This document shows positions 3,830-21,037 of a stretch of DNA of 23,076 nt, in pieces. A program made the translations under genes and the position numbers. Source of the stretch: a virus; the IMG/VR virus record IMGVR_UViG_3300020020_000433, positions 1 through 23,076 of that record; one strand, written 5' to 3'. Every line of letters begins with the position of its first letter. The stretch's first letter is position 1. The notes beneath the pieces are model-generated. The model did no database searches. It had not been told where the DNA came from and was given only the letters and a program-made list of their open reading frames with translations.

Positions 3830-5782
3830 ATGGCAACCATTCCGACGCTTCAAATTCCGCAACTCGGCGCCGTCTCCGGCGGCATCGATTTCTCGCCGCT
3901 GGCCAGCCTCGGTGAGCTTTACAAGAAGAAGCAGCAGGAAATGTCGCTGTCGGAACTGGGTAAGGGGCTTGCCTCTGGCACAGTGGACTATCGAACGGCG
4001 GCGGCGAAGTCGTTCGAGGCTGGCGACGTCAATTCGGGGATGAAGTTCCTGGCGCTGGCCGAGGATCAGCGCAAGGAGGCCCGCGGCGAGGCTGCGGGGC
4101 GTGATTTCCTGTCGGCGTTCACGCCGGGTGGGGGACAGCCACAGGCGTCAGGAGCGGCATTGCCGGCTTCTGGCGGGGCTGTCAGGACAATTCCGGGGCG
4201 AAGGTCTGACGCCAGGATCTATGAAAACGACGAGGCGTCGCCACTCGACCCGCCGTCAGGCGGCGAGCGTGACGCCGTCATCCGGACCATGCTCTCGGAG
4301 GCCGGCAATCAGGGACCGACCGGGCTGAACGCAGTCGGCTCCGTCATCCGCAACCGCTCGGTCGGCGGTGACGTGTCGCCCACGGAAGTGGTCACGGCCA
4401 AGAACCAGTTCGAGCCGTGGAATACGGCCGGGGGCCGGGCCAAGATGGCATCTTACGACCCGAACAGCCCAGCCTATCAGGCCGCGGCACGCGGACTGGA
4501 CGCGGCCTATTTTGGCAATGATCCGACCAACGGCGCCACGCATTTCTATTCCCCGAAGGCGCAGGCAGCACTCGGTCGCGCGCCGCCGCGGTGGGATGAC
4601 GGGACCGGCGTCGACATTAACGGGCACAGGTTCTTTGGTGGTGCTGCGGGCGGCGAGCGGACTCCGCAGCCGTACCAGGTGGCGGCAGGTGGGGCTGTTG
4701 CCCCGCCGTCGCGGGACGCGCAGGAACTGCAGCAGGCAGGCGGCCAGCAGGCGCTTGCGTTCCAGCAGCCAGCCCAACAGCCGGCACCGTTTCAACAGGC
4801 GCCGCCCACTCAAGTGGCGCAGGCACCGCAACAGGCAGGTGGTGCGGCTACGCCATCAATCCCGCATCTTCTGCAGGCCATTGCAAATCCGTATCTGCCG
4901 GCGGGGCAGAAGGACATCGCTAAGATGTACCTGCAGAAAAGTCTTGAGGCGGAAAAGACGCCTGACCACATCAAGCAGTTGCAGATCCTAAAGCGGGATA
5001 GCGGCTACCCCGGCACGCTTCTCGATCTGGAAAAGGAATTGAAGTCACTCGCCAAGACGGAAGTGAATATCAACCAGAAGGGCGAAAGCAAGTTCGAAGA
5101 AGAGTTCGCCAAGGTAGACGCGAAACGATTTGGAGACATAAGAGAAGCTGGAGAAGCCGCGCGGAAGAAGTTGGTTGATGTCGAGACGATGCGCGAGATC
5201 CACAATCGCGCCGGTTCGCAAGGCGTATTGGCTGGCGTCAAGGACGTCTTGGGGCCGTACGCTGACGCGGCCGGAATTAATATCGAGGGACTTTCAGATA
5301 TTCAGGCGTATGCGTCAGTGGTCGAACGGCTCGCGCCGCAGCAGCGGGCGCCGGGATCTGGTTCAACATCAGACGTCGAATACAAGGGTTTCAAGAAATC
5401 CCTGCCGCAACTGATGCAGAACCCCGCCGCGCGTGAAGTTACGCTGAATGTGCTGGAAGGGCTGACGCGCGACGAAATCGCGCGCGGCGACATCGTTTCA
5501 AAACTTTCATCGAAGGAAATCACTCGGGCCGAAGCCGAGAAGGCATTGCGCGCTTTGCCGGATCCGATGAAGGCGTTCTCGGAATGGCGCAAAGCTAACC
5601 CGGAAGCCTATGGGGCCGCGATCAAGGGCGCCAATGCGCCGAAGCAGACGCCGAAAATGTCGCCGTCAGACGTCGCTGACTCGCTTGCCAATGCGCGGGC
5701 GGCTATCGCCAAGACGCCCGCGGCGAAAGACGCCATTATCAAGAAATTGCGGGACAACGGGATCAACACGGACGGGCTTTGA
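3830..5782 (+). CDS. Ejection protein with SleB-type peptidoglycan hydrolase domain (gp20 position)
   Basis: A 650-residue virion protein that should cut peptidoglycan locally during DNA entry. Residues about 147-270 resemble the SleB/Hydrolase_2 cell-wall hydrolase domain: RDAVIRTMLSEAGNQGPTGL with Glu157 as likely catalytic acid, then VGSVIRNR, the QFEPW segment (193-197) and THFYSP (237-242). A Gln/Pro-rich linker (about 280-340) separates it from a C-terminal alpha-helical region (345-650), probably the part that forms the trans-envelope channel. The N-terminal 100 residues are also helical. The ATG follows the previous stop with no gap. It is the only peptidoglycan hydrolase seen in this window. 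The gp20-like role is inferred from position. Confidence 0.7.
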   Translation: MATIPTLQIPQLGAVSGGIDFSPLASLGELYKKKQQEMSLSELGKGLASGTVDYRTAAAKSFEAGDVNSGMKFLALAEDQRKEARGEAAGRDFLSAFTPGGGQPQASGAALPASGGAVRTIPGRRSDARIYENDEASPLDPPSGGERDAVIRTMLSEAGNQGPTGLNAVGSVIRNRSVGGDVSPTEVVTAKNQFEPWNTAGGRAKMASYDPNSPAYQAAARGLDAAYFGNDPTNGATHFYSPKAQAALGRAPPRWDDGTGVDINGHRFFGGAAGGERTPQPYQVAAGGAVAPPSRDAQELQQAGGQQALAFQQPAQQPAPFQQAPPTQVAQAPQQAGGAATPSIPHLLQAIANPYLPAGQKDIAKMYLQKSLEAEKTPDHIKQLQILKRDSGYPGTLLDLEKELKSLAKTEVNINQKGESKFEEEFAKVDAKRFGDIREAGEAARKKLVDVETMREIHNRAGSQGVLAGVKDVLGPYADAAGINIEGLSDIQAYASVVERLAPQQRAPGSGSTSDVEYKGFKKSLPQLMQNPAAREVTLNVLEGLTRDEIARGDIVSKLSSKEITRAEAEKALRALPDPMKAFSEWRKANPEAYGAAIKGANAPKQTPKMSPSDVADSLANARAAIAKTPAAKDAIIKKLRDNGINTDGL

Positions 5783-5986
5783 TTTCCACTTTCGGAAATC
5801 GGTGATTGCCTGTTCGATCATCAGAAATATCAGCGTGAAAATGAGAGCGAACAGAACGCCGAAAACGATCGCCAATCCAGGAACCCTGTCCGGGTGCTGA
5901 ACCACCTCTCGGCTCATTTCCAATTCCATCCAGATCGCAATCGCGACCGTCGCGGCCTGAATTGAACAGAGAAACAGACGTCTCAT
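5666..5986 (-). CDS. Possible antisense small membrane protein
   Basis: A 106-residue frame runs opposite to the virion genes. It covers the only sizeable + strand gap in this block (5783-5984) and the last 117 bases of the SleB-domain gene. The product starts MRRLFLCSIQAATVAIAIW, a first hydrophobic segment (3-21), and has a second strong one at about 35-58 (LAIVFGVLFALIFTLIFLMI), then a basic segment. The C-terminal 40 residues, which lie antisense to the ejection gene, look less natural, so the true protein could be shorter in function. A weak AAAGG lies about 11 bases upstream of the ATG. Its start overlaps the divergent ATG at 5985. It could be a cargo membrane protein or a chance frame; codon-bias and conservation tests would decide. 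Confidence 0.4.
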   Translation of the reverse strand: MRRLFLCSIQAATVAIAIWMELEMSREVVQHPDRVPGLAIVFGVLFALIFTLIFLMIEQAITDFRKWKSKPVRVDPVVPQFLDNGVFRRGRLGDSRPRIGKRVSDV

Positions 5987-8015
5987 GGCAGCTCTAACCT
6001 TTGATGATTTACCAGCGCCCCAGCCGCTTCCGGAGGGGCGGCCGAGGGTTCAGGTCAACACCGGGCCTAAAAGCAATGCCCTGACCTTCGATGACGTTAC
6101 CGCGCCACGGGACGCGCTGCAAACGGCGACAGGGTGGGGCAAGGCCGCGGTTTCCGGTCTTGACAAGGGCGTGGCGGGGCTGGCCGGTTTGCCGGCGGAC
6201 CTCGCGCTTGGTAGTGTGTGGCTGCTCAATTGGGCTTCCTCGAAGGCGCAGGGGCGGTCATTCGAGGAGGTTGAGGCCGAAAACGACCGAAAAGCCATCA
6301 TTTCCCGCGACACCATCAGGCCGTGGGGGGCGCAGGCGATAACTGCGGCCTCCCCGCTACAGCACAAGCCGGAAACCACGACAGAGAAATACATCGATAC
6401 CGCGATGTCGTTTGTGCCCGGAGCAGTCGCTCCAGGTGTTGCGGCCGGCAGACTTGCCAATATAGGGCGCGATGTGGTGCGGATGGGCATCGCACCAGGC
6501 GTTGTTTCCGAGGCCGCCGGGCAGGCCACGGAAGGCACGGCCATGGAGCCGTGGGCGCGGGGTCTGACGGCGCTAGGGACGGGCGCGGTAGGCGCATGGG
6601 TCAACGCGCCCAACGCGGCGGGGTCTGTCGTCACGCAGGCCGCCCGAGGCGCTACACCCGCCCAGATCGACGCTGCCGAGCAGTTGTTCCGACAGGCACA
6701 GCAGGCCGGTGTTCCGATTACACGCGCGGAGGCCGTCCAGTACGTCACGGGCGGGGCAACCAATCTCGGCAACCTGCAGAGGGTGGTCGAAGGTTCCGGC
6801 CAGATGCAGCCGTTCTTTGCCCAGCGGCCGGGGCAGGTCGAGGCAGCGACACGGCAGCAAATTGGGCAGACGCTGGGGCAGGCTGCGCCCGACCCGTATG
6901 CAATCGGTCCGCAAGTGGGGCAGGCCGCCGAGGGGGTTGTTCAGGACACCCGCAACGCCATCAATGCCCGGACGCGGCCCTTGTACCAGGCCGCCGACGT
7001 CGACCGTGTCCCACCGGCTCAGTACCAGCGACTAGCGCAAGATCCGAGTTATGACGCCGCGCTGCAGACAATCCGTAATCACCCCGAACTAGGGCCTCAA
7101 TTCAACCATCTGCCTGATAATTCCGTGACGGTTGTCGACGCCGTCAAGAAGCTGCTGAACACGCGCGCTGATGTTACGCCGAACGCAGATGCGACTGAAC
7201 GCTACCTTGCGAGTTTGCGTGGCACGGCTGAGACGAATGCAAGGACTGCCGGTACTGCCTCGTCTCCAGCTTACGCGCAGGCACTCGCGGAGCAGGCGCG
7301 GCTGCGGCAGCAATATCTAGAGCCGCTGCTGGCCGGGCCGCTCGGCAAACTGGCAAAGACCGACATGGCGACCGATCGAGCCATTCGTGTGCTGTTTCCG
7401 GAAAATCCGCTGCCAGGCGGGGAGAACCAGATAGGTGGAGCCATTACGGCACTGGCTACGCGCCAGCCGGGCGCCACTCGACAACTGGTTAGGGCGCACG
7501 TCGAGCGCACGTTTAACGAGGCAGTGCAGTTACTGCAGAGCGGCGCAAACCAATTCGGCGGTGCCGGCTTCGTTGCGGCGTTGCGCGGCAACCCACAGCA
7601 GGCCGCCAATTTCGAAGCGGCGCTAACGGCTCTGCGTGGCGGGCAAGCCTATCAGGGGATGGACCGCTTTCTGCAAATTCTCGAGGCGCAGGGCACACGC
7701 CAGCGCCAGGGGTCGCAGACCGCGTTCAATCAGGAAGTGCAGGCAGGGCTGAAGCAAGGCGGCACGGTCGCTGAGGCGCTGACGGGGGCGGCGACTGGCG
7801 GGATCAAGGTGCCTCAACAAATCAGTGACGCCATTCAGCGGATGCGTCTTGGACAGAATACGCGAGAGATCGCTGACCTTCTGACCAACCCCGACGCCGC
7901 CGCACTATTCCGGCAATTGGCAACAGCGCCGCCTAACTCTGCGAAGGCAACGGCAATCGCAACGCGGCTTTTCTACATGGCAACGCAGGACGCCAGAACC
8001 CGAGAGAAAAAGTAA
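5985..8015 (+). CDS. Large ejection / internal virion protein (gp16 position)
   Basis: A 676-residue Ala/Gln-rich protein, the last of the three ejection candidates. Near the N-terminus the motif LTFDD occurs twice (residues 4-8 and 33-37), each followed by a Pro-rich tail. Residues 50-80 and 130-220 are Ala/Gly-rich and hydrophobic (LAGLPADLALGSVWLLNW; FVPGAVAPGVAAGRLA), compatible with membrane insertion after ejection. The rest is predicted helical with many QQAG and TRAEA-type stretches. No catalytic motif is visible. The upstream ribosome site is weak (GAGAAACAG), unlike its tightly coupled neighbours. The assignment as an ejection protein rests on size, composition and place in the gp7-gp20-gp16 order. 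Confidence 0.6.
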   Translation: MAALTFDDLPAPQPLPEGRPRVQVNTGPKSNALTFDDVTAPRDALQTATGWGKAAVSGLDKGVAGLAGLPADLALGSVWLLNWASSKAQGRSFEEVEAENDRKAIISRDTIRPWGAQAITAASPLQHKPETTTEKYIDTAMSFVPGAVAPGVAAGRLANIGRDVVRMGIAPGVVSEAAGQATEGTAMEPWARGLTALGTGAVGAWVNAPNAAGSVVTQAARGATPAQIDAAEQLFRQAQQAGVPITRAEAVQYVTGGATNLGNLQRVVEGSGQMQPFFAQRPGQVEAATRQQIGQTLGQAAPDPYAIGPQVGQAAEGVVQDTRNAINARTRPLYQAADVDRVPPAQYQRLAQDPSYDAALQTIRNHPELGPQFNHLPDNSVTVVDAVKKLLNTRADVTPNADATERYLASLRGTAETNARTAGTASSPAYAQALAEQARLRQQYLEPLLAGPLGKLAKTDMATDRAIRVLFPENPLPGGENQIGGAITALATRQPGATRQLVRAHVERTFNEAVQLLQSGANQFGGAGFVAALRGNPQQAANFEAALTALRGGQAYQGMDRFLQILEAQGTRQRQGSQTAFNQEVQAGLKQGGTVAEALTGAATGGIKVPQQISDAIQRMRLGQNTREIADLLTNPDAAALFRQLATAPPNSAKATAIATRLFYMATQDARTREKK

Positions 8016-9125
8016 ATGGCTGGATTGTATCCTTTAAGCCGCTATCAGCAATTTGACGAGAACGGCGAGTTGCTGGTGGGCGCGCGACTGTTCCTGTTCG
8101 ACGGCGGCACCACAACGCCGCGCGTTGGATACCGCGATAGTTCGCTGACGACCGAACACCCGAACCCCATTGTTGCCGACGCGGCTGGCAGAATACCGCT
8201 GATCTACCTGGAAGATGGTTTCTACCGCCAGCGCCTGACCACGGCAAGCGGCGTAGTCGTTTTTGACGATGATGGGATCCCGGTCGTCTCGACCACCGCG
8301 GGCGGCACGGGCACTTCGGTCGACCCCAACAGCACGATGAAAACCCGCGACATCAAGGTCCGCTTCGATGACCAGCCGATTGACGGCTATGTCCGCCTGA
8401 ACGGTCGCACGATCGGCTCGGTTGCTTCAGGAGCGACCGAGCGCGCCAATGCGGACACACAGTCGCTGTACGAGGAGCTGTGGGGCTATTCAACTATCGC
8501 GGTGTCGGGCGGCAAGGGCGCCAGCGGGCCGGCGGATTTTGCCGCCAACAAGGCGCTGGTGCTGCCCGACTGCGCCGGGCGCGGTATCTTCGGCATGGAC
8601 GACATGGGTGCTGGTGCGCGCGGCATCCTGACGGCGGCGACGATTACCGGCCCGACACTGGTCGGCAGCTACGGCGGCAGCCAGCAAGTCACGATCGCGC
8701 AGGCGAATTTGCCGGTTTACACGCTGACGGGCGGCTCGAGCGAGAATTTCACGGTGTCGGGGACGAGCGGCAACGACAGCCCCGACCATACGCACGGACA
8801 GATTGGCACATTTGGCTCCACAGCTTCCGGCACCCACTCACACATTTACGGTACGGCGGCCACAAAGAACTTCAGAGCTGATGGCGTTGCGGTAGGCGGG
8901 GGCGGGCTGTGGGGCAACACCGTGGACGTGAGCACCAGCAGTGACGGTAATCACTCGCATAACATCACCATTTCGGGGTCAACTGAAGGGCGTGGAGCTT
9001 TCCATCAACATGCGTTCAGTTGGACTGGCGCCGCCCCGAACATCACGATCGGCTCGGGCGGCTCGGGCACGGCCACCACCAACTTGCCGCCGGTCATGCT
9101 GTTTATGATTTATATCCGACTTTAG
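8016..9125 (+). CDS. Tail fibre with collar-type, HxH-rich receptor-binding tip
   Basis: A 369-residue fibre. Residues 1-95 (LYPLSRYQQFDENGELLVGA, LFLFDGGTTTPR) form a beta-rich virion-attachment domain of a kind common in tail proteins. Residues about 118-232 resemble the tail-collar domain: a GYVRLNG turn, LVLPDCAGRGIFGMDD and VGSYGGSQQVTIAQANLP. The C-terminal part is Gly/Ser/His-rich with four HxH motifs (258/260, 274/276, 313/315, 330/332), the pattern that binds metal ions along the trimer axis in T4 gp12 and gp37 tips. It ends NLPPVMLFMIYIRL, like other collar proteins. The ATG directly follows the preceding stop. It probably contacts a cell-surface receptor. Confidence 0.75.
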   Translation: MAGLYPLSRYQQFDENGELLVGARLFLFDGGTTTPRVGYRDSSLTTEHPNPIVADAAGRIPLIYLEDGFYRQRLTTASGVVVFDDDGIPVVSTTAGGTGTSVDPNSTMKTRDIKVRFDDQPIDGYVRLNGRTIGSVASGATERANADTQSLYEELWGYSTIAVSGGKGASGPADFAANKALVLPDCAGRGIFGMDDMGAGARGILTAATITGPTLVGSYGGSQQVTIAQANLPVYTLTGGSSENFTVSGTSGNDSPDHTHGQIGTFGSTASGTHSHIYGTAATKNFRADGVAVGGGGLWGNTVDVSTSSDGNHSHNITISGSTEGRGAFHQHAFSWTGAAPNITIGSGGSGTATTNLPPVMLFMIYIRL

Positions 9126-9129
9126 GTGG
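9124..9129 (+). promoter_or_regulatory. Ribosome binding site choosing ATG 9135
   Basis: AGGTGG lies five bases upstream of the ATG at 9135. An in-frame GTG at 9127-region is part of this same site and cannot be the start, so the shorter reading is preferred. Confidence 0.7.
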
Positions 9130-9134
9130 AAACA

Positions 9135-9473
9135 ATGTATCACGTTTTATTCGCGCCACAGTCCACGCGGGCAAGTTGGGAGTTCTACGGCGAACTCACT
9201 GACGCTCAAGGCGTGCCGGTCGACCTGACCGGCTGTACAATGGTGTTCGCCGCCAACGAGAAAAACGGCGGCGGGCAGCGCCTGCTGGCTTCCACCGACA
9301 ATGGCAAGATCACCTTCCCGGATATCGGCATTTTCCGCTGGTTCTTTGAACGCGGTGAAATGGGCGGCCTGTGCGCCGGCACCTACGAAACCGGCCTGAC
9401 AATCGCGAATGATACGCAGACGATGCAACTCAGCGTCGGGCCGTTGTCGATTACTGATGGAGTAGTGCCGTGA
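9135..9473 (+). CDS. Small tail/baseplate-like protein, 112 aa
   Basis: A 112-residue, probably all-beta protein. The pattern 'D-x-x-G-V-P-V-D-L-T-G-C-T-M-V-F' (about residues 23-38), followed by a NGKITFPDIGIFRWFF stretch and a GTYETGLTI strand, is like the N-terminal domain of BppU-type upper baseplate proteins and of many phage fibre adaptors. The start at 9135 is chosen because of the AGGTGG site; a longer reading from 9126 would begin inside that site. The TGA overlaps the GTG start of the tailspike gene (GTGA), which suggests that the two proteins are made together and that this one may adapt or chaperone the spike. The exact function is unknown. Confidence 0.65.
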   Translation: MYHVLFAPQSTRASWEFYGELTDAQGVPVDLTGCTMVFAANEKNGGGQRLLASTDNGKITFPDIGIFRWFFERGEMGGLCAGTYETGLTIANDTQTMQLSVGPLSITDGVVP

Positions 9474-11599
9474 CGACTTTTCCGGTGAGTATGAGACTTC
9501 GCGCTCTTCCATCCTACCCGTCGCGCATTATTGGCGGTGATGGTATCTCGGCCACGACAGAGAATGGTCATGTCACGATCGATCTCGCGCACGGTGACTT
9601 CGGCCTGATTTCGTCAGTTCCGACTAGCCCGACAAACAGCATTCTGACATACGACACGGCGACGGGGGAATATGCCAATATCCCGTCGTCATTACTGGGT
9701 GGCGCTGTCTCCGGCATCGGCGATGCGCCGTCAGACGCAACACTCTACGGCCGAAAAAGTGCTAGCTGGGTGCATGTTGCAATTGCTGATGTACCAGGAT
9801 TGCAGACGGCGCTTGACACCAAGGCGCCGTTAGCGTCTCCGGCATTGACGGGCAACCCGACTGCGCCGACGCCGACGCCAGGCGATAACGACACGTCGAT
9901 TGCAACGACGGGTTTTGTCCGTACGGCTATCGCGGCCATCCCGCCGGGGTCGAGCCTTGTTTACGATTACGAAACCCGGCCGCTGGCAGCGGCGGCGACT
10001 ATTCCGGCGGCGATTCACATGGTGCGGCTCGGCGGCTGTATCAATGTCGGCGAGGGCGGCGCTCTCTATACCCGCGTCGGCAGTGCGCCATCGCACAGCG
10101 CCAGGTTTCAATCGGCTGACGGCGGCTGGTGGGAAATCGCGCCGGAATATACCGTTGACGCAAGACAGTTCGGCGCGATCAGTTCGGACAATGTTGCAAA
10201 CCGCGCAACCAATACCGCCGCCATCAACGACATGCTGACTTATGCGGCGGCGCGCAATCTGCCGTGCGGCATCTTCGGCCTGTTTCCGGTGACGAAGGTT
10301 CTGGTTCCAGGAAATTCGCGCATTTTCGCTGGCGGCGTTCTGCTCGGCGACACCACCAATTCCTATTCCGCGGTGGTCGAGATAGTCGACGCGGTCGACG
10401 TTGTGATCACCGGCAATCTGACCGTTAGCGCCTCCTACAACACCGGCTATGCCTGCGGGGTCAAGATATGGGGCAACGCTAGCCTGGTCGGTTATGTCGA
10501 CATTCACGGCATCAGCATTGCCGGCGCGCAAGTCGGCTGGCAGATCGGCGACCTCACCAAGCCGGATTCTACCGTGAGCGAAATCACCATTGCCGGTGGT
10601 TATACCTACGGCACGCCAACGGCGTTGCTAGCCATTGGCACTCAGACTTTTGCCAACTTCAGCGGCTACAAGTTGCAGTCGGCGCAGGGCGCCGGCACGG
10701 GCGCGTGGTTGTCATTGCCGCTCAAGGCAGTGATTGTCATTGGAGCCGGGGTCATACAGACCGGTGGCGAACTACTTGAGGTGCTCGACGCCACCGGTTG
10801 CGGCGTCGAATTGCGACCGATCAACAGCGCCACTTATCCGAAATCATATGGCACCTATAAGGCGACCGGGGTTGTGATCGAAGCGGCGGGCTATCTGGGG
10901 CTTGCAGCCAATCCGGCTAGCGTGACGCCGGTTGCCGCCACACGCGGCGGCTTTGAGTTTGGCAGCGGGTGCGTTGGCATTATGATGGGCAACACGGTGC
11001 CGATCATTTCTACAGCAGCGGATTTCACTGGCTCGATTATCTGTGGTCCCAATCGCTTCTATTCGAGTGTGGTGCGAACACCGCAGACCATTTCCTGTGC
11101 GGGGAATGCCGATATCTACTGCGACGATGCCGCGTTCGGCCTGAATTTCCCGTCGACACTGACCGGGATCACCGGTGGCATCGTGCATTTCAGTCATCGC
11201 CATATCCTGCATGCCTTCAACCTGGTAGGGCAGGCGCTCGCGGCCAGCAGTGCTACGGCGCTGAAATTCCAGGCGCTCGACAACAGCGGCGACAAGGCAC
11301 ATTTTGCCAGCGGCTATTCCACGACGACCGGCGTGTTTACGGTGCCGGTCGGCGGGTTGAAGGAAGTGCTGGTATCGGCGACGTTCGGACTGGCAGCGGT
11401 GACCAATGGGCAGTTGATCGTCATGGTAAACGGCGCATCCCGCCAGGGCAGCTACGTCAACGTCTACGGCAACACCATGGCCAGTCTCGGCCCGCTCAAT
11501 GCCGGCGACACCATTTCCGTTTCATTGATGAATTTGACCGGTGCCACGCCGGCCGGTTCGAATGCCTGGGATACTCTTTCAATCTATGCGGCGAGGTGA
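9470..11599 (+). CDS. Tailspike: fibre repeat, right-handed beta-helix, C1q-like tip
   Basis: A 709-residue receptor-binding or depolymerising spike. Residues 1-115 are a virion-attachment region. Residues about 115-157 (LQTALDTKAPLASPALTGNP, then DNDTSIATTGFV) match the repeat used in phage tail fibres. The stretch YTVDARQFGA (about 228-236) followed by TNTAAINDMLTYAA is the usual entry into a pectate-lyase-like beta-helix, which runs to about 570. The last 130 residues (FQALDNSGDK, GVFTVPVGG, VMVNGASRQGS, LNAGDTISV) look like a C1q/TNF-type jelly roll that trimerises the tip. The GTG start overlaps the previous stop, with GGAG eight bases upstream; an internal ATG at residue 8 is an alternative. 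Catalytic residues cannot be placed by eye. Confidence 0.75.
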   Translation: MTTFPVSMRLRALPSYPSRIIGGDGISATTENGHVTIDLAHGDFGLISSVPTSPTNSILTYDTATGEYANIPSSLLGGAVSGIGDAPSDATLYGRKSASWVHVAIADVPGLQTALDTKAPLASPALTGNPTAPTPTPGDNDTSIATTGFVRTAIAAIPPGSSLVYDYETRPLAAAATIPAAIHMVRLGGCINVGEGGALYTRVGSAPSHSARFQSADGGWWEIAPEYTVDARQFGAISSDNVANRATNTAAINDMLTYAAARNLPCGIFGLFPVTKVLVPGNSRIFAGGVLLGDTTNSYSAVVEIVDAVDVVITGNLTVSASYNTGYACGVKIWGNASLVGYVDIHGISIAGAQVGWQIGDLTKPDSTVSEITIAGGYTYGTPTALLAIGTQTFANFSGYKLQSAQGAGTGAWLSLPLKAVIVIGAGVIQTGGELLEVLDATGCGVELRPINSATYPKSYGTYKATGVVIEAAGYLGLAANPASVTPVAATRGGFEFGSGCVGIMMGNTVPIISTAADFTGSIICGPNRFYSSVVRTPQTISCAGNADIYCDDAAFGLNFPSTLTGITGGIVHFSHRHILHAFNLVGQALAASSATALKFQALDNSGDKAHFASGYSTTTGVFTVPVGGLKEVLVSATFGLAAVTNGQLIVMVNGASRQGSYVNVYGNTMASLGPLNAGDTISVSLMNLTGATPAGSNAWDTLSIYAAR

Positions 11600-12499: not shown

Positions 12500-12946
12500 A
12501 TGTTTGATCATGTCTACGCCAAGATAAGCCCGGAGCCAAACACGGGATGTTGGATATGGACTGGTTCGATAAGCAGTACCGGATATGGCAATGTTTCGAT
12601 TGTGAAGGACGGTAAACGTAAAACTAGAAATGCCCCTCGTCTAATGTATGAACTCGAAAAAGGCCCCATCAAGCAGGGTCTTATAATTGATCATCTGTGC
12701 AGAAACAGGTGGTGTGTAAATCCAGACCACCTTGAACCTGTCACCTATCGCGAGAACTCCATAAGGGGCTTGGGACCAAAAATGCTTGGGGATCGCAATT
12801 CAACTAAAACCCATTGCCCGAAAGGGCATTCTTACTCCGATGGAAACCTGTACGCCTACAAAGGCAGAAAAGGTCGAGACTGGCGCGGCTGTGTTGAATG
12901 CAGGAGGGCGAGCGGTGTAAGGCAAAGGGGAAAAGCTAATGGCTGA
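12500..12946 (+). CDS. HNH homing-type endonuclease
   Basis: A 148-residue nuclease, probably a selfish free-standing homing endonuclease. The HNH motif is plain: IIDHLCRNRWCVNPDHLEPV (62-81), with Asp64-His65, Asn74 and His77 as the likely metal and catalytic residues. Upstream, CWIWTGSISSTGYGNV (17-32) is the usual beta-strand lead-in of this HNH_3-like group. A zinc ribbon follows (CPKGH at 106-110, CVEC at 131-134). Base composition is visibly more AT-rich than the genes around it and the codons differ (AAA, AGA, ATA, CTA are used), so it looks acquired. It overlaps the start of the next gene by eight bases. No strong ribosome site precedes its ATG. Confidence 0.9.
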   Translation: MFDHVYAKISPEPNTGCWIWTGSISSTGYGNVSIVKDGKRKTRNAPRLMYELEKGPIKQGLIIDHLCRNRWCVNPDHLEPVTYRENSIRGLGPKMLGDRNSTKTHCPKGHSYSDGNLYAYKGRKGRDWRGCVECRRASGVRQRGKANG

Positions 12947-14870
12947 TATCGATCTCCTGCCGCCGCGCGGCATCCCCAGGCTTGCGCTGGTGGACGGGCT
13001 GGGCATTGCCACCAACGGCTCACAGACGGTCGCACAGCTCGCCGCCAGGGGCATGCGGTCGGTCTGCGCGGTAGACAGCACGGGCGTCTCTGTCAGCGGC
13101 GCCACGATGCTGCAGCTCGCCCAGAGGGGCATTAGCGCCTTCTGCCCGGTGGACGAGCTGGGCGTGGCCCAGAGCGGCGCCACAGCCGACGCGCTGCGTC
13201 GGGCCGGCATCCGGCCCATGGTTCTGCTCGGGGCGACTGGCGTCGCCCTGACAGGCTCGGCCACGATGCTGACCCTGGCGCAGCGGGGGTTGCCCTATTT
13301 CTGCCCGGTCGACGAGGCCGGCAACGCCACCACCATGGGCGCCGTTATCCTGGTTAGCAATACCAACGTGCTGGAGACGGCCACGATCGGCACCAACGTC
13401 GGGGTGCTGTCGGTGGCGGGAGGCACAGGCACCTACACCTTTTCCCTGACTGACAGCGCAGGCGGCAAGTTCGCTGTGGCCGGCACCAACGGCGTCAACC
13501 TCAACACCGCGGCGACACTCAATTACGCAACCGCGCCAAGTCACAACATCACGGTATCTGCCACCAATGGCGGTACGCCGATCACCCGGACGATCGTCAT
13601 CACGGTCGTTCAGGTGCCTGTGCTGCCCGCCAATGCCGGCGGCGCCAATCTGCCTGCCATCAGCGGCTCGACCGTGGTCGGCGGCGTTCTGACATCAACA
13701 ACCGGCACCTGGACCGGTAGTCTCCCGATTACATACGCCTACCAGTGGAAGCGCGGCGCGACCAACGTCGGCACCAACTCCAGCACCTACACCACGGTTG
13801 CCGCGGACATCGGCTCGACCATGACGGTGGTGGTGACCGCCACCAACACCGCCGGCAGCGCCAACGCAACGTCCGCCGCAACGGCGGCAATCACCGGCAT
13901 TGCGCCGGTCAATACCGTCCTGCCAGCCATTTCCGGCTCGACTACGCAGGGCGCGACGCTGACGGCGACAACAGGAACCTGGACCGGAACGCCGACGCCG
14001 ACCTACGCCTACCAGTGGAAGAGCGCCGGCGTGAACGTCGGCACCGGATTGACGACCTACGCGACGGTGGTCGGCGACGTTGGCAACACCATCACGGTAG
14101 TGGTCACCGCTACCAACGTGGCGGGAAGTGCCAATGCAACGTCAGCCGCGTTTGGGCCGATTGTTGCGACTGCCGGGCCGCCGGGGGCACCGACGCTCGA
14201 CCTCGCAGCGGCGTCCGATACGGGGTCATCATCGACTGACGACATCACCACCGACACCACGCCCGACATCGTCATTACGTTTACGGTTGCGCTCGTGACC
14301 GGCGATATCATCCACCTTCTCGACGGTGCATCGGAACTGGTGGCGCATACCGTCACGGCGCTTGAAGCCGGATCATCCACAATTGAACTAACGGCGATAT
14401 CTCCGCTGGCCGGCGGGGCGCATTCGCTTACCGCCACTCACGAACGGGGCGGCCTGACCAGCCCGGTGAGTGCTGCATTGGTGTTTACGGTTGACCTGAC
14501 TGCACCAACCATCACCACGCCCAGCACAGCCAACGTCAACGAGGGCGTGGCGCTGGCGATTGCACTTACGGCAAACGAAACGGTGACGTGGACAGAGACA
14601 CTGGACACTGGAAACCATTTTGAAATTTCCGGGGCCACGCTGCGATGGACCAGCAACGGCACCAAGGCATTCACGGGTGTGGTCGATGCATACTCCTGCG
14701 AGGTTACGGCGACGGACGTTGTCGGCAATGCATCAAGCGCGACAATCACCGTCACGGTTCTCGATGTCGCTGGCTTGACGCGGGATTTTGGCGCGGAAGG
14801 TATTGGTATTTCAGTCACAACCGGCAGCAGGGAGTGGAGCGCCGAGGGCGTTTCATTTGTGGAGAGCTAA
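12939..14870 (+). CDS. Ig-like/cadherin-like repeat tail protein with 26-aa N-terminal repeats
   Basis: A 643-residue adhesive tail protein built from repeats. Residues about 11-135 hold four to five copies of a 26-27-residue unit with the core 'RG[IM]xxxCPVDExGVxxSGATxxxLAQ'. Residues 136-230 look like a cadherin-like or Ig-like domain (ETATIGTNVGVLSV). Two 90-residue Ig-like units follow in tandem (238-327 and 328-about 415), each with TGTWTG, YAYQWK and VVVTATN blocks. Residues 420-515 (DTTPDIVITF, GDIIHLLDG) are a bacterial Ig-like domain, and 520-605 another. The end (FGAEGIGISVTTGSREWSAEG) is a short beta segment. It probably extends from the tail and binds surface glycans weakly. A small AAGGGG site precedes the ATG inside the HNH gene. 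Confidence 0.7.
   Translation: MADIDLLPPRGIPRLALVDGLGIATNGSQTVAQLAARGMRSVCAVDSTGVSVSGATMLQLAQRGISAFCPVDELGVAQSGATADALRRAGIRPMVLLGATGVALTGSATMLTLAQRGLPYFCPVDEAGNATTMGAVILVSNTNVLETATIGTNVGVLSVAGGTGTYTFSLTDSAGGKFAVAGTNGVNLNTAATLNYATAPSHNITVSATNGGTPITRTIVITVVQVPVLPANAGGANLPAISGSTVVGGVLTSTTGTWTGSLPITYAYQWKRGATNVGTNSSTYTTVAADIGSTMTVVVTATNTAGSANATSAATAAITGIAPVNTVLPAISGSTTQGATLTATTGTWTGTPTPTYAYQWKSAGVNVGTGLTTYATVVGDVGNTITVVVTATNVAGSANATSAAFGPIVATAGPPGAPTLDLAAASDTGSSSTDDITTDTTPDIVITFTVALVTGDIIHLLDGASELVAHTVTALEAGSSTIELTAISPLAGGAHSLTATHERGGLTSPVSAALVFTVDLTAPTITTPSTANVNEGVALAIALTANETVTWTETLDTGNHFEISGATLRWTSNGTKAFTGVVDAYSCEVTATDVVGNASSATITVTVLDVAGLTRDFGAEGIGISVTTGSREWSAEGVSFVES
12969..13326 (+). repeat. 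Tandem repeat of about 78-81 bp (26-27 aa), 4-5 copies
   Basis: Units begin near codons 11, 38, 64, 90 and 117 of the Ig-like protein. Copies 2, 3 and 5 share Cys-(Ala/Pro)-Val-Asp; copies 1 and 4 have diverged at the Cys. They are coding repeats and not a separate element. Confidence 0.7.
13651..14170 (+). repeat. Two tandem 270-bp Ig-like modules
   Basis: The second unit is offset from the first by exactly 270 bases. For example the 18-base string TACGCCTACCAGTGGAAG occurs at 13734 and at 14004. Similar long matches occur at the ACCTGGACCGG and GCCAACGCAACGTC blocks, so the modules arose by in-frame duplication. Confidence 0.85.
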
Positions 14871-16214
14871 ATGGCACATCGTTTTGTAAGAAGTGGCGGG
14901 GACGCCGGGGCGTGGACCGGGACAGTGACGACGCTTACGGCGGGGCTGTTAGCGGCTTTGGCTGGCGAGGATATCTACGTTGCAGCTGATCATGCCGAGG
15001 CGCTATCCGCCACCGCTCTCACGCTGACATCGGCTGGCACCCAGGCACTCCCATGCCGCATTTTTGTTGCCGACCACACGGTGGCGCTCTCCAGCGGCAA
15101 CGTTGTCGCGGCGGCATTGATCAGCACGCCGACTGTCACGATCGGGACGTCAGGCGCATCTGCTCTTTCGACGGGTGGCGTTGTGTCGGACTGCCGAGGG
15201 TTCATTTTCACGGCCGGTAGCGCCGCGTCAGTTGCCAACATTACAGTCATTGGATTTTGGTCATTCAAGAACTGTTCGTTTATTATAGCAAACACAGCGA
15301 CAACGTCGGTAATCAGGCCGGGCGGCAATTCGCAGTCCAAGACTGTATTTGATGATTGTTCAGTGAAGTTTGGCTCAACAGCACAAGCCATCACAGTGAA
15401 CGCTGGCGAGTTTGTCTGGAAGAATACCGCAAATCCATTCGTCTCTGGTTCCGTTATCCCGGCGGGATTGTTCTCGGGAGCGTCGGGGGGGTCGGCGTTG
15501 CTGCGCGGTGTTGATTTAAGCGGCATAGCACCTGTTGCGGGCAAAACCCTGGTTGCTGGAGCGGTTGGCATTGTATTCAATGTAACACTGATCAACTGCA
15601 AAGAGCCGGCATCGTGGACACCTATTGTTGGGGTGCAGTCTGGCGATTTTCTTACGCTGGTACGCGAGCGCAGCGAGAACGGCGCCATTAACTACACCAA
15701 GTCCAAGGACGACTATTTCGGCCAGCAATCTACCGAGACGACAATCATCCGGACCGGCGGGCCGACTGACGGCACCACGTCAACGTCGTGGAAAATCAAC
15801 ACCGCCACGGCCGGCACGTTCACCGGAAGGGCGAGGCCGCAAAAGCCGTTCAAGTCCACGCCGATGGTAATCTGGAACGACGTTACCGGCACCAACCGGG
15901 TGGTGACGGTGTACGGCGTCTGGGCGGGTGGCGCGGTGCCGTTCAATGACGATATCTGGCTGGAGGTCGATTATCTCAGTTCCAGCGCCAGTCCACTTGG
16001 CACAGTGGTTAGCACGACAATTGCCACACCCCTGACCGCGCACGCGGCGGTTGGTACGGATAGCTCGACCTGGGCGTCTTCTCCCGGCACGGCCTTTAAG
16101 TTGGTGGCGACACTCTCCGCGCCGCAGCCGGGCATGAAGGGACCGATGACGATCCGCGTCTGCGTTGGTGCCCAGAGTACTTTATATATCGACTGGAAGC
16201 CGGTACTCAGCTGA
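14871..16214 (+). CDS. Beta-rich tail protein, 447 aa
   Basis: A 447-residue protein in the receptor-binding block. The first 30 residues (MAHRFVRSGGDAGAWTG, TLTAGLLAALAGEDIYVA) resemble the opening of beta-helix tail proteins that tile a list of rungs. Residues about 60-260 are Ala/Gly/Val/Thr-rich rungs (VISDC-like VVSDCRGFIF, FKNCSFII, FDDCSVKFG) consistent with a right-handed beta-helix. The last 150 residues (KSTPMVIWND, VYGVWAGGAVPFNDDIWLEV, TLYIDWKPVLS) form a separate beta-sandwich, a tail seen on other phage structural proteins. No enzyme motif is recognisable. It abuts the previous gene, and its TGA overlaps the next ATG (TGATG), so it is likely to be made with, and perhaps to anchor, the 1401-aa enzyme. 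Confidence 0.65.
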   Translation: MAHRFVRSGGDAGAWTGTVTTLTAGLLAALAGEDIYVAADHAEALSATALTLTSAGTQALPCRIFVADHTVALSSGNVVAAALISTPTVTIGTSGASALSTGGVVSDCRGFIFTAGSAASVANITVIGFWSFKNCSFIIANTATTSVIRPGGNSQSKTVFDDCSVKFGSTAQAITVNAGEFVWKNTANPFVSGSVIPAGLFSGASGGSALLRGVDLSGIAPVAGKTLVAGAVGIVFNVTLINCKEPASWTPIVGVQSGDFLTLVRERSENGAINYTKSKDDYFGQQSTETTIIRTGGPTDGTTSTSWKINTATAGTFTGRARPQKPFKSTPMVIWNDVTGTNRVVTVYGVWAGGAVPFNDDIWLEVDYLSSSASPLGTVVSTTIATPLTAHAAVGTDSSTWASSPGTAFKLVATLSAPQPGMKGPMTIRVCVGAQSTLYIDWKPVLS

Positions 16215-19200
16215 TGGCGCAACATGTCTTTATAATATCGGGACAGTCGAACGCCGCCGGCCAGTGGTCGGGCACCGTGCCTGCGCATTTGCAGACAGCG
16301 GATGCCGGCATCAAGATCTGGACCGGCGCGTCGTGGGATACGCTGGTTAACGGCACTAATAACCAGACCCTGGCGTCCGGCATATCAACGGCGGGCTGGT
16401 GGGGGCCGGAATCTCAATTTGCCTATCTGTTCCGGCAGATGTTTCCGACAGAGACAATCTATCTCCTGAAGGCGGCGGTGGGATCGACAGGCATAGCTTA
16501 CTGGTTGCCGAGTGGCGTTGGGTATAATCTCATTACCGCGAATATTACGCCGGCCCTGGCCGCGTTGTCGTCGCCGGTTGTGGACGGCTTTCTCTGGTAT
16601 CAGGGCGAACAGGACGCGACGACATCTGTATTGGCGAATGCCTATCAAGCCAATATGGAGGCACTCGACGTCGTCGTTAAAACGACATGGCGCGGCACCG
16701 AGGCCACCCGAATGATGGTGGCCCAGGTCAATCCGGGTGACGGGAGGGCTTATCTCTCGACCGTGCGCGCGGCGCAGGCGGCCTATTGCGCCGCCGATCC
16801 GGCAGGGCGCTTTCTCAACAACACGGCCGCCTATTCGTATCAGGGCGATGCCGTGCATTTGACTGCGACCGGGCTGGTATCCTGCGGCGCAGACATGTTT
16901 GCCAACTATCTGACGGCGCGGCGCAGCCGCATGGTGTGGAGCAGCGCGGCCAGTACGGCTGAAGTCGCGTTTATGGCTGCGCCGGATATCATCGCGATTG
17001 TGGTGGAAGATCCGCCAATCATCCCCGGCAACATCGTGTCCGGCTCGTTTGACACGCATCCATATGTCACCTGGTTCCAGATGACTAACCCGCGCAGCGG
17101 TGCGATGGAATGGTGTACGCCTCTCGGCAAGGACCGCACCGAGGTCAGGTTCAGCGATCTGCCCAACCCGGCGGGCTACATCAACAAGGTGGCGCTGCGG
17201 ACCTTGGCGAACTGGTCACTGACCGGCGGCGGGGGCGTCACCATTTCCAATGTCTATTACCGCGACGAGGCCAGCGGGCAGGGCTGGGTATTCAATACAG
17301 GAAGCGGGCAGGGGCTCAATTCCTACATGGTCACGCAGCGGCATACGGTCTACCTGAAACTGTCCGGCGTACCGACAGGCGCCGCCATGACCATCGGCAA
17401 CGCGACCGCCGGTGTTGCCCCAATCAGCTACACCTTCAACGACAAGACTTCGCGAGCGGGTGGCATCCAGGTCAACCACATTGGCCAGCGCCCTGACGAC
17501 GCGCACAAATACGGCTATCTGGCCGCGCGCATTCCTGGCGCAGCCAATAGCGGCACCATGCAATTTGCCGCCGCGCCCTACAACATGACGACGTTCCATG
17601 TGCTGGATAGTACTAAGACGTCAGTCTATTCCAATTCCATTGTGCAGCGGGTTAGCTCGGCACTGACACCGGGCGAGGGATACGACAGCGGCATTGACGT
17701 GGCCGATCTTGGGCAGGGCTGGCGGATTACAGGTGTAACCAAGGGGGCATCAACCACGACTGTAACCTGCTCGGGCGGGCACGGCCTTGCGGTCAACGAC
17801 CGAGTGCGGTTCTTTGGTATCAGTGGCATGACGCAACTGGAAAATCCGCCGGCTGTGCTGGCTGGAAGTAACTGGTTTGCGCCGATCATTACGCGCGTTG
17901 ATGCCACCACCTTCGACATTGCGCTTAACTCTAGCGGGTTCACTAATTTCTCGGCCACTCCGGTAACAAGCGAGGCGCTCGGCGGCATAACCAATATGGT
18001 GTTCAAGTGTTTCAACACCAATCGCGCCGGCACTTACGTTTATGGGTTGGACTTCAGCGCGTGGACGCCAAGCAGTGGCGGGACGTATTACCTGCATATT
18101 CCCGGTTATGGCATCAGCGACCCGATGCAAATCACATCCAATGCATGGGCGCAGTCTACCGCCAAGCTGCATGAGGGCGTCTACACGTTGAGACACGGCA
18201 TCGCTGTGACCAACTCGAGCGGCTATTCGCGCGGCGTGTCGCTCTACGATGGCGTTAACGGCGTCACCAATTATCGCAGCACATTGGTTGCTCTGTTCTG
18301 TACAGAGTGCGCGAGTTTCTACATTCCAACGCCGGCACCGGCACCGCCAACGGCAATAGGTTCGGGGCTCGGCGCTTACTACAACGCCGGCGCTGCGTTT
18401 ACGTTTACGTCTCTGACTGTCTCCGGCTCGACCATTACCGCCACGACATCCGCGCCGCATGGAATAACCATCGGGCAGAGCATCGCCGTGCAAATGGTGG
18501 GGTCGGCACCGGCAACCTACCTCAATGGCACTGGCTCCATCTTGACGGCGTTAGCTACAGACAAGTTCACCTATACCGCTGTGGGCACCGCACCTGTCGC
18601 ACCAGCTACAACACCCGGCATCGGAAGAAGTGGCTGGGTTACCAGCGTGCGCCATCCGGGCCGGGTTGCGCACCAGGATGCGGGCGACAATGACGAGCCG
18701 GGGATCGATCATTTCCCGGCTTGGAAGCTACTAGCGATGGTGTTTGGCAACATGGACAAGCCGTCGCGCTTTACGCCGTTCACGGTGCCGCTCAGTAGCG
18801 CCGTGCTGGATCCGACACTGTTTGCCGGTACCGATGCGCTGCCGCCGCTGTTCCATGAGATGTTCTGGTTTGCCGAGCCGTATCGCGTCAATCAAATGCC
18901 GGACGGTTCAGTGTGGGGAGGGCACAATATCGGGGCACAAAAGTTGCCGCCTTTGTTGCCTGAGTTTTCGTCGGCGATTGCTTCCTATCCGGAAACCATT
19001 GACAAGTACCGCGGGACGGACGCGGGCGGTGGGCTGACGGGGCAAACCGTTCACGCCTACATCTACGCGCGCGACCACCTGACAAATTTTCTCTATGCCG
19101 CCTATGCCGCGCAACTGGCGCAGATTGCATATGATTACACGCTGACGGCATTGGGCGATGCCTACAAAGCGTCGGCGATCGCGGCCTATGCGTGGGCCGA

Positions 19201-20419
19201 TAATCTCATGACCGACCCGGTCGCGCGTGACGCCTATTACAAGGGGGAACTGAATTTACGGGACAAGGCCGGGTGGACCGAGGCGCAGTATCAGAACGCC
19301 ATGATCGAGATCGACGGCTATCCGGGGGTGCTGAAGCGCGGCATGGTCGCCAAGGTAGACGCGGCTGGGTCGCTGTTCCGGCTGCTCGGTAGTACGACGG
19401 GGGCGGCGTATGGTGCGTTTATCACCAACCGGGCGTGTACGACTGCGACGGTAAGCAATGCCGGCACTGGTCACGCTGTCAACGATATCCTGACACTTGC
19501 CACCACAGGCGCCACAGGCGTGGTCAAGCCGATCAGGATATTGGTGACTGCCGTGGACGGGGGCGGCGGGATAACCGGGCGCTCCGTGTTGAATACTGGA
19601 TCGTTCACGACGGCGCCGACACCCAATCCCATAGTGCAAGCGAGTTCTACGGGGTCCGGTATCAATGCCTCGTTTACGATCGCCACCCTGCCGATGCACA
19701 ACAATATTGGGGAAGAACACATCGGTGGTTACGATTACTGCGTGACGACAGGAGCTAATGCCACCGCAAAATCAGATATTCAAACGCGATCGTCCGCCAA
19801 TCCTCAACCCGCGTTGTGCATGGCATCAACGATGGGCTACATGGGGATGTTCTGGCGCGGTGGGTCGCCGGGTACGTCGGGGACTACAGAGCCAGCCGGT
19901 ATGTTAGAGATGATACTGGCTCATTCGCATTATGCTTTTATCAACGGCAACACGGCGGCAAGAAGTTCGGAGTTTATAAAACTGATGCAGGCTGGCGCTA
20001 ATTTCATCCATGGTGCAAACCTGGCGAATAAGGCGTACATCACCGGGATGGGTCCACGACCTTTCAGGATTGTCTTGCACGAAGATAGTTTCAAGTACGG
20101 CGCCAAGCCTATCCACGGCATCAATGTCATGGGGCATTTTGCCTGGGCGACATCATCGATGTTCAACAACTTCGCCGGCAGCACGGCGGCTTCTGATGGT
20201 CCGCTCAATTACAATTCGGACAACACAACAGGACTTTATGAAAGCTATGCCACGCCTGGCTCGGCCAAGATGTGGAACCCGTGGCGGGGGGCGTCGAGTT
20301 ATTGGGAATGGTCGCCTGAGAATAAGGGCATCATTTACGCTTCCGAGTTCACCCAAATTCTGCAGGTGAGTTTACTGGCGATGGAACTGTACCTGCACGG
20401 CTGGGACGATAACGTCTAG
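16214..20419 (+). CDS. Tail-borne polysaccharide enzyme: SASA esterase + GH9-like glycanase with inserted modules
   Basis: A 1401-residue, probably bifunctional enzyme. Residues 1-235 are an SGNH/sialate-O-acetylesterase (SASA) domain: GQSNAAG with Ser12, WYQGEQD (128-134) and DAVHL (Asp212, His215). Residues about 416-645 resemble the Ig-like domain in front of GH9 glycanases: IQVNHIGQRPDDAHKYGYL, then DFSAWTPSSGGTYYLHIPGY. Residues 655-1401 fit a GH9 (alpha/alpha)6 barrel: VAHQDAGDND (Asp822 and Asp825, the DAGD pair), PPLFHEMFWFAEPYRVNQMPDG, HGANLANKAYITGMG and ASEFTQILQ (Glu1378, candidate acid). Three beta modules interrupt it: about 503-585 and 728-790 (HGL/HGI...G-type, like FCCH domains of tail proteins) and 1075-1158 (SNAGTGHAVND...NTGSF). 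It likely deacetylates and cuts capsule or exopolysaccharide. The GH9 call is inference from motifs; activity is unknown. Confidence 0.75.
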   Translation: MAQHVFIISGQSNAAGQWSGTVPAHLQTADAGIKIWTGASWDTLVNGTNNQTLASGISTAGWWGPESQFAYLFRQMFPTETIYLLKAAVGSTGIAYWLPSGVGYNLITANITPALAALSSPVVDGFLWYQGEQDATTSVLANAYQANMEALDVVVKTTWRGTEATRMMVAQVNPGDGRAYLSTVRAAQAAYCAADPAGRFLNNTAAYSYQGDAVHLTATGLVSCGADMFANYLTARRSRMVWSSAASTAEVAFMAAPDIIAIVVEDPPIIPGNIVSGSFDTHPYVTWFQMTNPRSGAMEWCTPLGKDRTEVRFSDLPNPAGYINKVALRTLANWSLTGGGGVTISNVYYRDEASGQGWVFNTGSGQGLNSYMVTQRHTVYLKLSGVPTGAAMTIGNATAGVAPISYTFNDKTSRAGGIQVNHIGQRPDDAHKYGYLAARIPGAANSGTMQFAAAPYNMTTFHVLDSTKTSVYSNSIVQRVSSALTPGEGYDSGIDVADLGQGWRITGVTKGASTTTVTCSGGHGLAVNDRVRFFGISGMTQLENPPAVLAGSNWFAPIITRVDATTFDIALNSSGFTNFSATPVTSEALGGITNMVFKCFNTNRAGTYVYGLDFSAWTPSSGGTYYLHIPGYGISDPMQITSNAWAQSTAKLHEGVYTLRHGIAVTNSSGYSRGVSLYDGVNGVTNYRSTLVALFCTECASFYIPTPAPAPPTAIGSGLGAYYNAGAAFTFTSLTVSGSTITATTSAPHGITIGQSIAVQMVGSAPATYLNGTGSILTALATDKFTYTAVGTAPVAPATTPGIGRSGWVTSVRHPGRVAHQDAGDNDEPGIDHFPAWKLLAMVFGNMDKPSRFTPFTVPLSSAVLDPTLFAGTDALPPLFHEMFWFAEPYRVNQMPDGSVWGGHNIGAQKLPPLLPEFSSAIASYPETIDKYRGTDAGGGLTGQTVHAYIYARDHLTNFLYAAYAAQLAQIAYDYTLTALGDAYKASAIAAYAWADNLMTDPVARDAYYKGELNLRDKAGWTEAQYQNAMIEIDGYPGVLKRGMVAKVDAAGSLFRLLGSTTGAAYGAFITNRACTTATVSNAGTGHAVNDILTLATTGATGVVKPIRILVTAVDGGGGITGRSVLNTGSFTTAPTPNPIVQASSTGSGINASFTIATLPMHNNIGEEHIGGYDYCVTTGANATAKSDIQTRSSANPQPALCMASTMGYMGMFWRGGSPGTSGTTEPAGMLEMILAHSHYAFINGNTAARSSEFIKLMQAGANFIHGANLANKAYITGMGPRPFRIVLHEDSFKYGAKPIHGINVMGHFAWATSSMFNNFAGSTAASDGPLNYNSDNTTGLYESYATPGSAKMWNPWRGASSYWEWSPENKGIIYASEFTQILQVSLLAMELYLHGWDDNV

Positions 20420-20514
20420 CGCCATTTCCACACACCATAGGCCAGCCACGCCACCTTGGCGGCAAATGGCAGCGCAAGCAGGGCCACCAGCCAGGCCGGG
20501 ATATTATCAAACAT
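20416..20514 (-). CDS. Tiny membrane protein, 32 aa, overlapping the PEP-CTERM gene
   Basis: A 32-residue frame, MFDNIPAWLVALLALPFAAK then VAWLAYGVWKWR, with one membrane-spanning segment and a basic end. Its ATG overlaps the stop of the upstream PEP-CTERM gene by eight bases (ATGTTTGA), a geometry that favours translational coupling; no independent ribosome site is visible. Its own TAG uses the same CTAG tetranucleotide as the stop of the convergent tail enzyme gene. It exactly fills the space between the two genes. The function is unknown. The hydrophobicity pattern argues that it is translated, but a frame this short can arise by chance. Confidence 0.5.
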   Translation of the reverse strand: MFDNIPAWLVALLALPFAAKVAWLAYGVWKWR

Positions 20515-21037
20515 TTTTGTTTTCCATGGGACGGTAACGTCTGACTAGCGCGATCCCGGCAAAACCAAGGATCAGCATTGCCCAGGTCGATGGCTCTGGC
20601 ACTGGCGCTGCGATCGAGAGATTGTCCGGCAGGGAGAATCCAACGGTGATATCGTTGACGATCCAGTTCTCGGAATATAACGCAGAAATGCCCACATAGA
20701 TCGTCCGGTCGGTGTCCGAAATAGTGAACGTGTGGTCGAAAATTTCCGGGTAATGATAACCGGTGGAGCTTCTGACCTCATCAAATTGGGCATAGGAATT
20801 CTGGGTGCTGATGCCAGCCGTGGCTTGGTAACCGTTGTTCATGTAGTACTCAGGATATAGTTGGCGGATATCTACATACATCCAAGCCCCGATTTCGATA
20901 GGTTCCGGGATAGCTCCGTAGACCGTGAACTGATGCGGCCCGGTGAGGTAGTGGCTTTCAACCCATACAGCCTGGCTAGGGCCAGCCGACAGCAATGACG
21001 CCGCGAGCGCGCAGGCGGCGACCGATAAAAATCTCAT
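20507..21037 (-). CDS. Secreted protein with PEPxxWA-CTERM sorting signal
   Basis: A 176-residue exported protein. The N-terminal 23 residues are a Sec signal peptide (MRFLSVAACALAASLLSAG, cleavage likely after SQA). The mature part (24-145) is beta-rich and aromatic and I recognise no enzyme motif. The C-terminus is a textbook PEP-CTERM tail: PEPSTWA (147-153), hydrophobic segment (152-165) and RRYR. In bacteria this signal is processed by an exosortase in strains that make exopolysaccharide. A GGGGA site precedes the ATG by about eight bases. It runs against the tail genes and lies between them and the integrase, the usual place for phage cargo genes, so it may alter the lysogen surface. 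No exosortase is in the window, so host machinery would be needed. Confidence 0.85.
   Translation of the reverse strand: MRFLSVAACALAASLLSAGPSQAVWVESHYLTGPHQFTVYGAIPEPIEIGAWMYVDIRQLYPEYYMNNGYQATAGISTQNSYAQFDEVRSSTGYHYPEIFDHTFTISDTDRTIYVGISALYSENWIVNDITVGFSLPDNLSIAAPVPEPSTWAMLILGFAGIALVRRYRPMENKNV

Follow-up and report, generated by a model that had tools for sequence, protein, structure and literature searches.

The 23,076-nucleotide virus contig IMGVR_UViG_3300020020_000433 (positions 1 to 23,076 of the record, referred to here in its entirety as the window) encodes a tail-region protein in which a SASA-type acetylesterase domain is joined in frame to a divergent enzyme of glycoside hydrolase family 9 (GH9). 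The gene, located at 16214-20419 on the plus strand, is a single uninterrupted open reading frame of 1401 codons without an internal stop. Judging from its sequence, the protein is probably a polysaccharide depolymerase with two activities, encoded by a P22-type podovirus of an alphaproteobacterium, and would deacetylate its substrate and then cut it. The chances are about even that it also represents a new family of GH9-based phage tail depolymerases, derived from a hydrolase of a bacterial exopolysaccharide cluster, of which one member is a single-chain two-step O-deacetylase and backbone hydrolase.

In the proposed mechanism, the N-terminal SASA domain would strip O-acetyl groups from the exopolysaccharide or capsule of the host, and the CelD_N-GH9 part would next hydrolyse the exposed beta-linked backbone. 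The hydrolysis is expected to follow the inverting GH9 mechanism, with Asp825 as the base, Asp822 assisting, and Glu1378 as the acid. Cutting of the backbone may let the virion reach the cell surface. The sequence itself establishes which domains and catalytic residues are present, where the modules begin and end, the clean junction of the insertion, and the position of the gene among tail genes; the enzyme activities, their substrate, the order in which they act, and the attachment of the protein to the virion are inferred.

Residues 1-239 (16214-16930, plus strand, as are all parts of the gene) form a SASA/SGNH carbohydrate acetylesterase domain. Residues 3-233 match the Pfam family SASA (PF03629) with an E-value of 3.6e-25 and a score of 89.3 bits, well above the curated cutoff of 24.8. 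The catalytic pattern of the family is complete: the serine block is present as GQSNAAG (residues 10-16), the WxQGE block as WYQGEQD (128-134), and the Asp-x-x-His block as DAVHL (212-216). The predicted nucleophile is Ser12 (codon 16247-16249), and the predicted catalytic partners are Asp212 (16847-16849) and His215 (16856-16858). In a BLASTP comparison, residues 1-238 align with Vi01_171c, annotated as a Vi maturation/adhesion tail spike, with an E-value of 1e-11 and the GQSN, WxQGE, and GDxxH blocks in register. Among 50,697 phage records, the esterase matched 40 phages of Salmonella, most of them of serovar Typhi, and one Ochrobactrum phage. The closest phage relatives of the SASA domain by sequence are tail-spike acetyl esterases of the Vi01 type (PMC3220722). 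Acetylesterase activity has been demonstrated experimentally for SGNH tail fibres of Klebsiella prophages (PMC13123978), and tail deacetylases have been described in Acinetobacter phage Aristophanes and Pectobacterium phage Possum (PMC8471582, PMC9569702).

The predicted GH9 catalytic domain comprises residues 640-1401 (18131-20416) and is interrupted by two of the three beta modules described below. The motif DAGDND (residues 822-827, 18677-18694) aligns with the GH9 sequence HDAGDY/H and provides the predicted catalytic aspartates Asp822 and Asp825. The segment GANLANKAYITGMGPRP ... LHEDS (residues 1267-1292, 20012-20089) is the equivalent of the GH9 block GxNPxxxSYVTGxG...HHR. The predicted general acid Glu1378 (20345-20347) is part of the sequence SEFTQI (1377-1382). 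In a separate alignment, it is placed on the glutamate of the NEVAIN/NEIAIN motif of canonical GH9 enzymes, and DAGD on the GH9 DAGD. All three residues are invariant in eight aligned proteins, seven of them full-length phage proteins including that of the window and the eighth a homologue from Aminobacter, and their earlier designation as the GH9 catalytic set is upheld.

Profile comparisons lead to the same family. When the single sequence was compared to the Protein Data Bank (PDB), CelD was found with an E-value of 0.014 in two collinear stretches, one at residues 600-668 and the other in the block at 1267-1292, where a weak Pfam GH9 match is also located. A profile hidden Markov model (HMM) built from phage sequences only reached Clostridium thermocellum CelD in the PDB at 2e-8. 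In hhalign comparisons with GH9 proteins from other bacterial genomes, the E-values, which apply to a single comparison, were 7.4e-11 with the window protein as the master, and 1.8e-14 or 7.4e-17 with the relatives L012 and L013, in which modules 2 and 3 are naturally missing, as alternative masters. The alignments extended over up to 415 columns. Chance motif matches were ruled out by the profile E-values for SASA and GH9. Because the phage-only profile, the hhalign comparisons, the alignment of catalytic residues, and the Aminobacter homologue agree, GH9 membership is well supported at the family level, even though the score of the single sequence lies below the strict Pfam threshold. The original prediction, made from the sequence alone, had claimed the fusion of a SASA esterase to a CelD_N-GH9 protein and had named seven sequence elements, all of which are present at their positions in one open reading frame; the fusion is confirmed by the SASA, CelD, and hhalign matches.

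The Aminobacter homologue (P0002), a plasmid protein annotated as GH9, serves as a bridge between the phage proteins and characterised enzymes. It matches Pfam GH9 at 2.5e-15 with 57.1 bits, past the cutoff, and the solved structure of CbhA at 2e-10, and it was aligned with the window protein over its whole length. Like the phage protein, this 'glycoside hydrolase family 9 protein' of paAMD1 (WP_268738182) contains a domain named MAAPDII, an immunoglobulin (Ig)-like domain with an FCCH-like insert, and a GH9 domain, with 28-30% identity. However, it is bacterial, bears a predicted signal peptide, lacks the esterase and modules 2 and 3, and is encoded next to a polysaccharide-synthesis cluster. 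The annotated start of WP_268738182 (L007, upstream of 10025) is probably too late and leaves out an upstream in-frame segment resembling a signal peptide (VVFAFRVFLMALLTLPASARA), which becomes the N-terminus if translation begins at an in-frame GTG. The Aminobacter enzyme is therefore probably exported. The neighbouring genes encode glycosyltransferases, a flippase, a BcsQ-like protein, a polysaccharide exporter, and an O-antigen ligase. Together with the export signal, these neighbours indicate that the substrate of this GH9 lineage would be a bacterial exopolysaccharide rather than plant cellulose. The phage GH9, as its sequence indicates, shares ancestry with this signal-peptide-bearing enzyme encoded beside an exopolysaccharide-synthesis cluster, and the target of the window enzyme is probably likewise a bacterial exopolysaccharide. 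Some GH9 enzymes cut xanthan, and acetylation has been reported to shield xanthan against depolymerases (PMC10881899).

Several observations weigh against a two-step depolymerase. The single-sequence match to Pfam GH9 (PF00759) has an E-value of 0.049 and scores 13.4 bits against a cutoff of 27.7, which is a threshold of sensitivity and not a property of the enzyme. AlphaFold predictions, in which a GH9 enzyme would be expected to show an (alpha/alpha)6 barrel with its catalytic residues in one cleft, were of low confidence, both for residues 240-1401 with seven phage sequences (pLDDT 38, pTM 0.34) and for residues 640-1401 with 12 viral sequences (pLDDT 42, pTM 0.52), because the relatives are too few. 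GH9 endoglucanases and a xanthanase were among the top hits of a Foldseek search with the latter model, with E-values of at least 0.03 and low TM-scores, which is not significant. The GH9 xanthanase MiXen also acts on native xanthan (PMC10881899), and prior deacetylation is therefore not a general need of GH9 enzymes. Furthermore, no virion anchor domain was recognised in the fusion protein, and the fusion is present in only one metagenomic contig.

The GH9 half is very divergent from characterised GH9 enzymes, with hhalign identities of 8-12%. It is conceivable, but improbable, that only the SASA half is active, as a receptor-recognising deacetylase like those of phages Vi01, G7C, and Aristophanes, and that the GH9 part is a binding or structural scaffold. 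The distance from characterised enzymes, the inserted modules, and the reports on known phages, which describe only deacetylation (PMC8471582, PMC13123978), fit such an arrangement. However, Asp822, Asp825, and Glu1378 are conserved in all eight diverged proteins, of which only that of the window carries a fused esterase. Had catalysis been lost, these positions would normally be free to vary, and a dead GH9 domain was therefore rejected as the first choice.

Between the esterase and the catalytic domain, residues 240-414 (16931-17458) form the MAAPDII beta domain, the N-terminal part of the GH9 protein, which is also present in the Aminobacter homologue. It is followed by a CelD_N-type Ig-like domain, identified from the CelD match and hhalign, in two halves composed of residues 416-501 and about 600-640 (17459-18133). 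The sequence VNHIGQRPDDAHKYGY is located at 420-435 and GTYYLHIPGY at 623-632; the first half matches the NQxGYxP strand of GH9 proteins in hhalign. The window sequence alone has no Pfam match to CelD_N (PF02927), and three of the eight family members have matches below the cutoff. Homology of the family to the N-terminal region of CelD was detected by the phage-only HMM at 2e-8, and the distant phage GH9 proteins of L055 and L054 match CelD_N clearly past the cutoff.

Beta module 1 (residues 503-585, 17720-17968) is E1_FCCH-like; the isolated segment matches PF16190 at 2.7e-5, below the curated cutoff. Its position is between strands of the Ig-like domain, and in the alignment it is shared by L012, L013, and the Aminobacter protein. 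Module 1 is therefore considered ancestral and leaves the catalytic domain undivided. Module 2 (residues 728-790, 18395-18583), ahead of the DAGD motif, matches PHROG 9998 (function unknown) at 1.6e-4. Module 3 (residues 1075-1158, 19436-19687) is a phage structural-protein module, the isolated segment of which matches PHROG 32129 (unknown) at 2.7e-8 and PHROG 9703 (head decoration) at 2.1e-7. Modules 2 and 3 do interrupt the catalytic domain; they occur only in the window protein and its close relatives, being absent from L012, L013, and the Aminobacter protein. The original prediction of three modules inserted into loops of the GH9 part thus holds for modules 2 and 3, whereas module 1 belongs to the Ig-like domain.

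Viral relatives of the protein are 89% (L002), 50-54% (L008, L009, L010, and L011), 32% (L012), and 27% (L013) identical to it. Seven viral contigs encode this type of GH9, and the esterase is fused to it only in the window; the other close relatives lack it. Homology between the DNA of the window and that of L002 runs to where the preceding gene ends and the fusion gene begins, taking in the first codons of the latter, and resumes exactly at the ATG at 16931, the counterpart of which in L002 lies close to the beginning of a separate GH9 gene. The GC content of the 0.7-kb esterase segment is 0.605, compared to 0.583 and 0.585 in its neighbours. The junctions and the similar GC content indicate a clean addition of an N-terminal module, and the esterase would have been joined precisely to the N-terminus of a GH9 gene that was already present in the phage. 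The occurrence of the fusion in one contig could alternatively reflect a metagenome assembly artefact, in which an unrelated esterase was joined to the GH9 gene. This is highly improbable, since the reading frame is continuous, the segment is flanked on both sides by DNA homologous to L002 that breaks off at the start codon and the ATG at 16931, the GC content is close to that of the neighbours, and L002 itself has a SASA-like esterase joined to another tail gene. An assembly chimera was rejected because of the clean two-sided junction.

L002 also joins a SASA-like esterase, different from that of the window, to another tail gene, at the N-terminus of the next-but-one gene (hhalign to the SASA set, probability 87, E-value of 4e-6 for one comparison). 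The C-terminal part of this gene's product is 70% identical to the protein encoded at 12939-14870 of the window. The presence of two non-orthologous esterases near the same GH9 suggests that esterase and GH9 are functionally coupled. If so, the non-orthologous esterase on a neighbouring tail gene of a related phage would imply that deacetylation is required before this GH9 cuts. The gene upstream of the GH9 in L012 appeared SGNH-like by eye (GDSN start), but the profile comparison gave a probability of 1.6, and it was not counted as an esterase. A search of solved structures with the esterase-like neighbours of L002 and L012 gave nothing useful. No match was found by tblastn with the whole window protein and the Aminobacter protein in the 50,697 phage records, or when viral contigs were scanned with the Aminobacter protein as the query.

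The gene content of the window is typical of a temperate podovirus and includes a major head protein, a P22-type head closure protein Hc3, tail fibres, an HNH endonuclease, and an integrase. The fusion gene follows directly after the tail genes, with the Hc3, tail fibre, and major head families upstream, and the gene is within the tail or structural block in the relatives as well. The tail-region protein directly upstream (14871-16214, plus strand), 54% identical to the product of the gene immediately upstream of the GH9 in L002, is a possible adaptor. It is preceded by a Big_13 tail-region protein (12939-14870, plus strand), the C-terminal part of which has 70% identity over 185 amino acids to its L002 homologue. 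The plasmid relatives listed for the integrase are alphaproteobacterial, the best being 52% identical and from Bradyrhizobium. An assignment to Alphaproteobacteria is therefore justified, and the narrower rhizobial one implied by the polysaccharide of the original proposal is not established.

It is unlikely that the protein is a free enzyme and not part of the tail, either made late and released by lysis to degrade exopolysaccharide or biofilm, or encoded by a carbohydrate-feeding accessory gene. The lack of a recognised anchor would agree with a free enzyme, as would the secreted appearance of other viral GH9 proteins, the Tat-like starts of L012 proteins, and the active GH9 accessory cellulase of a rumen viral contig (PMC10465536). 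However, the window protein has no signal peptide, its gene is inside a run of tail genes, module 3 matches a phage virion-protein family, and the relatives of its SASA domain are tail spikes, all of which argue against a free enzyme.

A separate lineage of viral GH9 proteins, possibly secreted accessory enzymes, is encoded in L052 (1873-6368), L053, and L054 (6908-8767). That of L054 has a signal-peptide-like N-terminus, and that of L052 adjoins a signal-peptide beta-helix gene and is close to virion genes. L055 encodes two tandem paralogues, each with GH9 and CelD_N (6575-8878 and 9227-11542; Pfam 5e-26 and 4e-26), in which HDAADWD replaces HDAGD, as well as a UvsX-like recombinase. In L012, two tail-region proteins (3315-4838 and 5848-9807), one of them the GH9, start with the Tat-like sequence SRRN(F/L)L, which is unusual for virion proteins. 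Proteins with PEPxxWA-CTERM sorting signals are encoded next to the integrase gene in the window (20507-21037, minus strand) and in L002 (9431-10057 and 11541-12338, minus strand). Such surface proteins near an enzyme that cuts exopolysaccharide could be cargo that remodels the surface of the lysogen. The HNH endonuclease gene among the tail genes (12500-12946; PHROG 826, 1.7e-44) possibly encodes a homing endonuclease. The large protein encoded at 3830-5782 has a cell wall hydrolase domain of the SleB type in its interior (Hydrolase_2, 1.9e-9) and is probably an ejection or virion lysin protein.

Most phage depolymerases of known fold are beta-helix lyases or hydrolases, and phage deacetylases have usually been described as acting alone. 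A tail-gene product that combines a GH9 barrel with an O-deacetylase would add a catalytic family to those known among phage depolymerases. It would link a phage enzyme to a bacterial hydrolase encoded beside an exopolysaccharide cluster, offer a one-protein system for asking whether acetylation shields exopolysaccharide against phages, and could supply tools for acetylated alphaproteobacterial polysaccharides. In the literature searched, where subscription papers are sparsely covered, no report was found of a phage-tail GH9 or of its in-frame union with an acetylesterase. Precedents exist for each half: SGNH tail deacetylases on the one side, and GH9 accessory genes of viruses (PMC10465536) and GH5/GH48 phage cellulases on the other.

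The CelD/CbhA-type GH9 enzymes of C. thermocellum share the order of a CelD_N Ig-like domain followed by GH9 and the catalytic Asp/Asp/Glu, but identity to the window protein is very low, and the latter has in addition the MAAPDII domain, an FCCH-like module within its Ig-like domain, and two further modules that interrupt its catalytic domain. The rumen GH9 accessory cellulase is also virus-encoded and is active on CMC; however, it is reported as an auxiliary metabolic gene with a product close to a Ruminococcus GH9 and is not described as a tail-region protein or an esterase fusion (PMC10465536). GH9 endoxanthanases such as MiXen provide a precedent for GH9 action on a bacterial exopolysaccharide (PMC10881899). 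The Vi capsule acetyl esterase Vi01_171c of Salmonella phage Vi01 shares with the window protein the SASA (DUF303) family, over 238 aligned residues, and the tail-spike context, but in Vi01_171c the esterase lies within the spike and no glycoside hydrolase part is known, and the host of Vi01 is a gammaproteobacterium. The cellulase-type hydrolases gp094 and gp095 of Erwinia amylovora phage S6, for which cellulose is the first receptor, are likewise thought to cut a beta-glucan exopolysaccharide receptor, but they belong to GH48 and GH5 and are encoded by separate genes with no fused esterase (PMC9544554).

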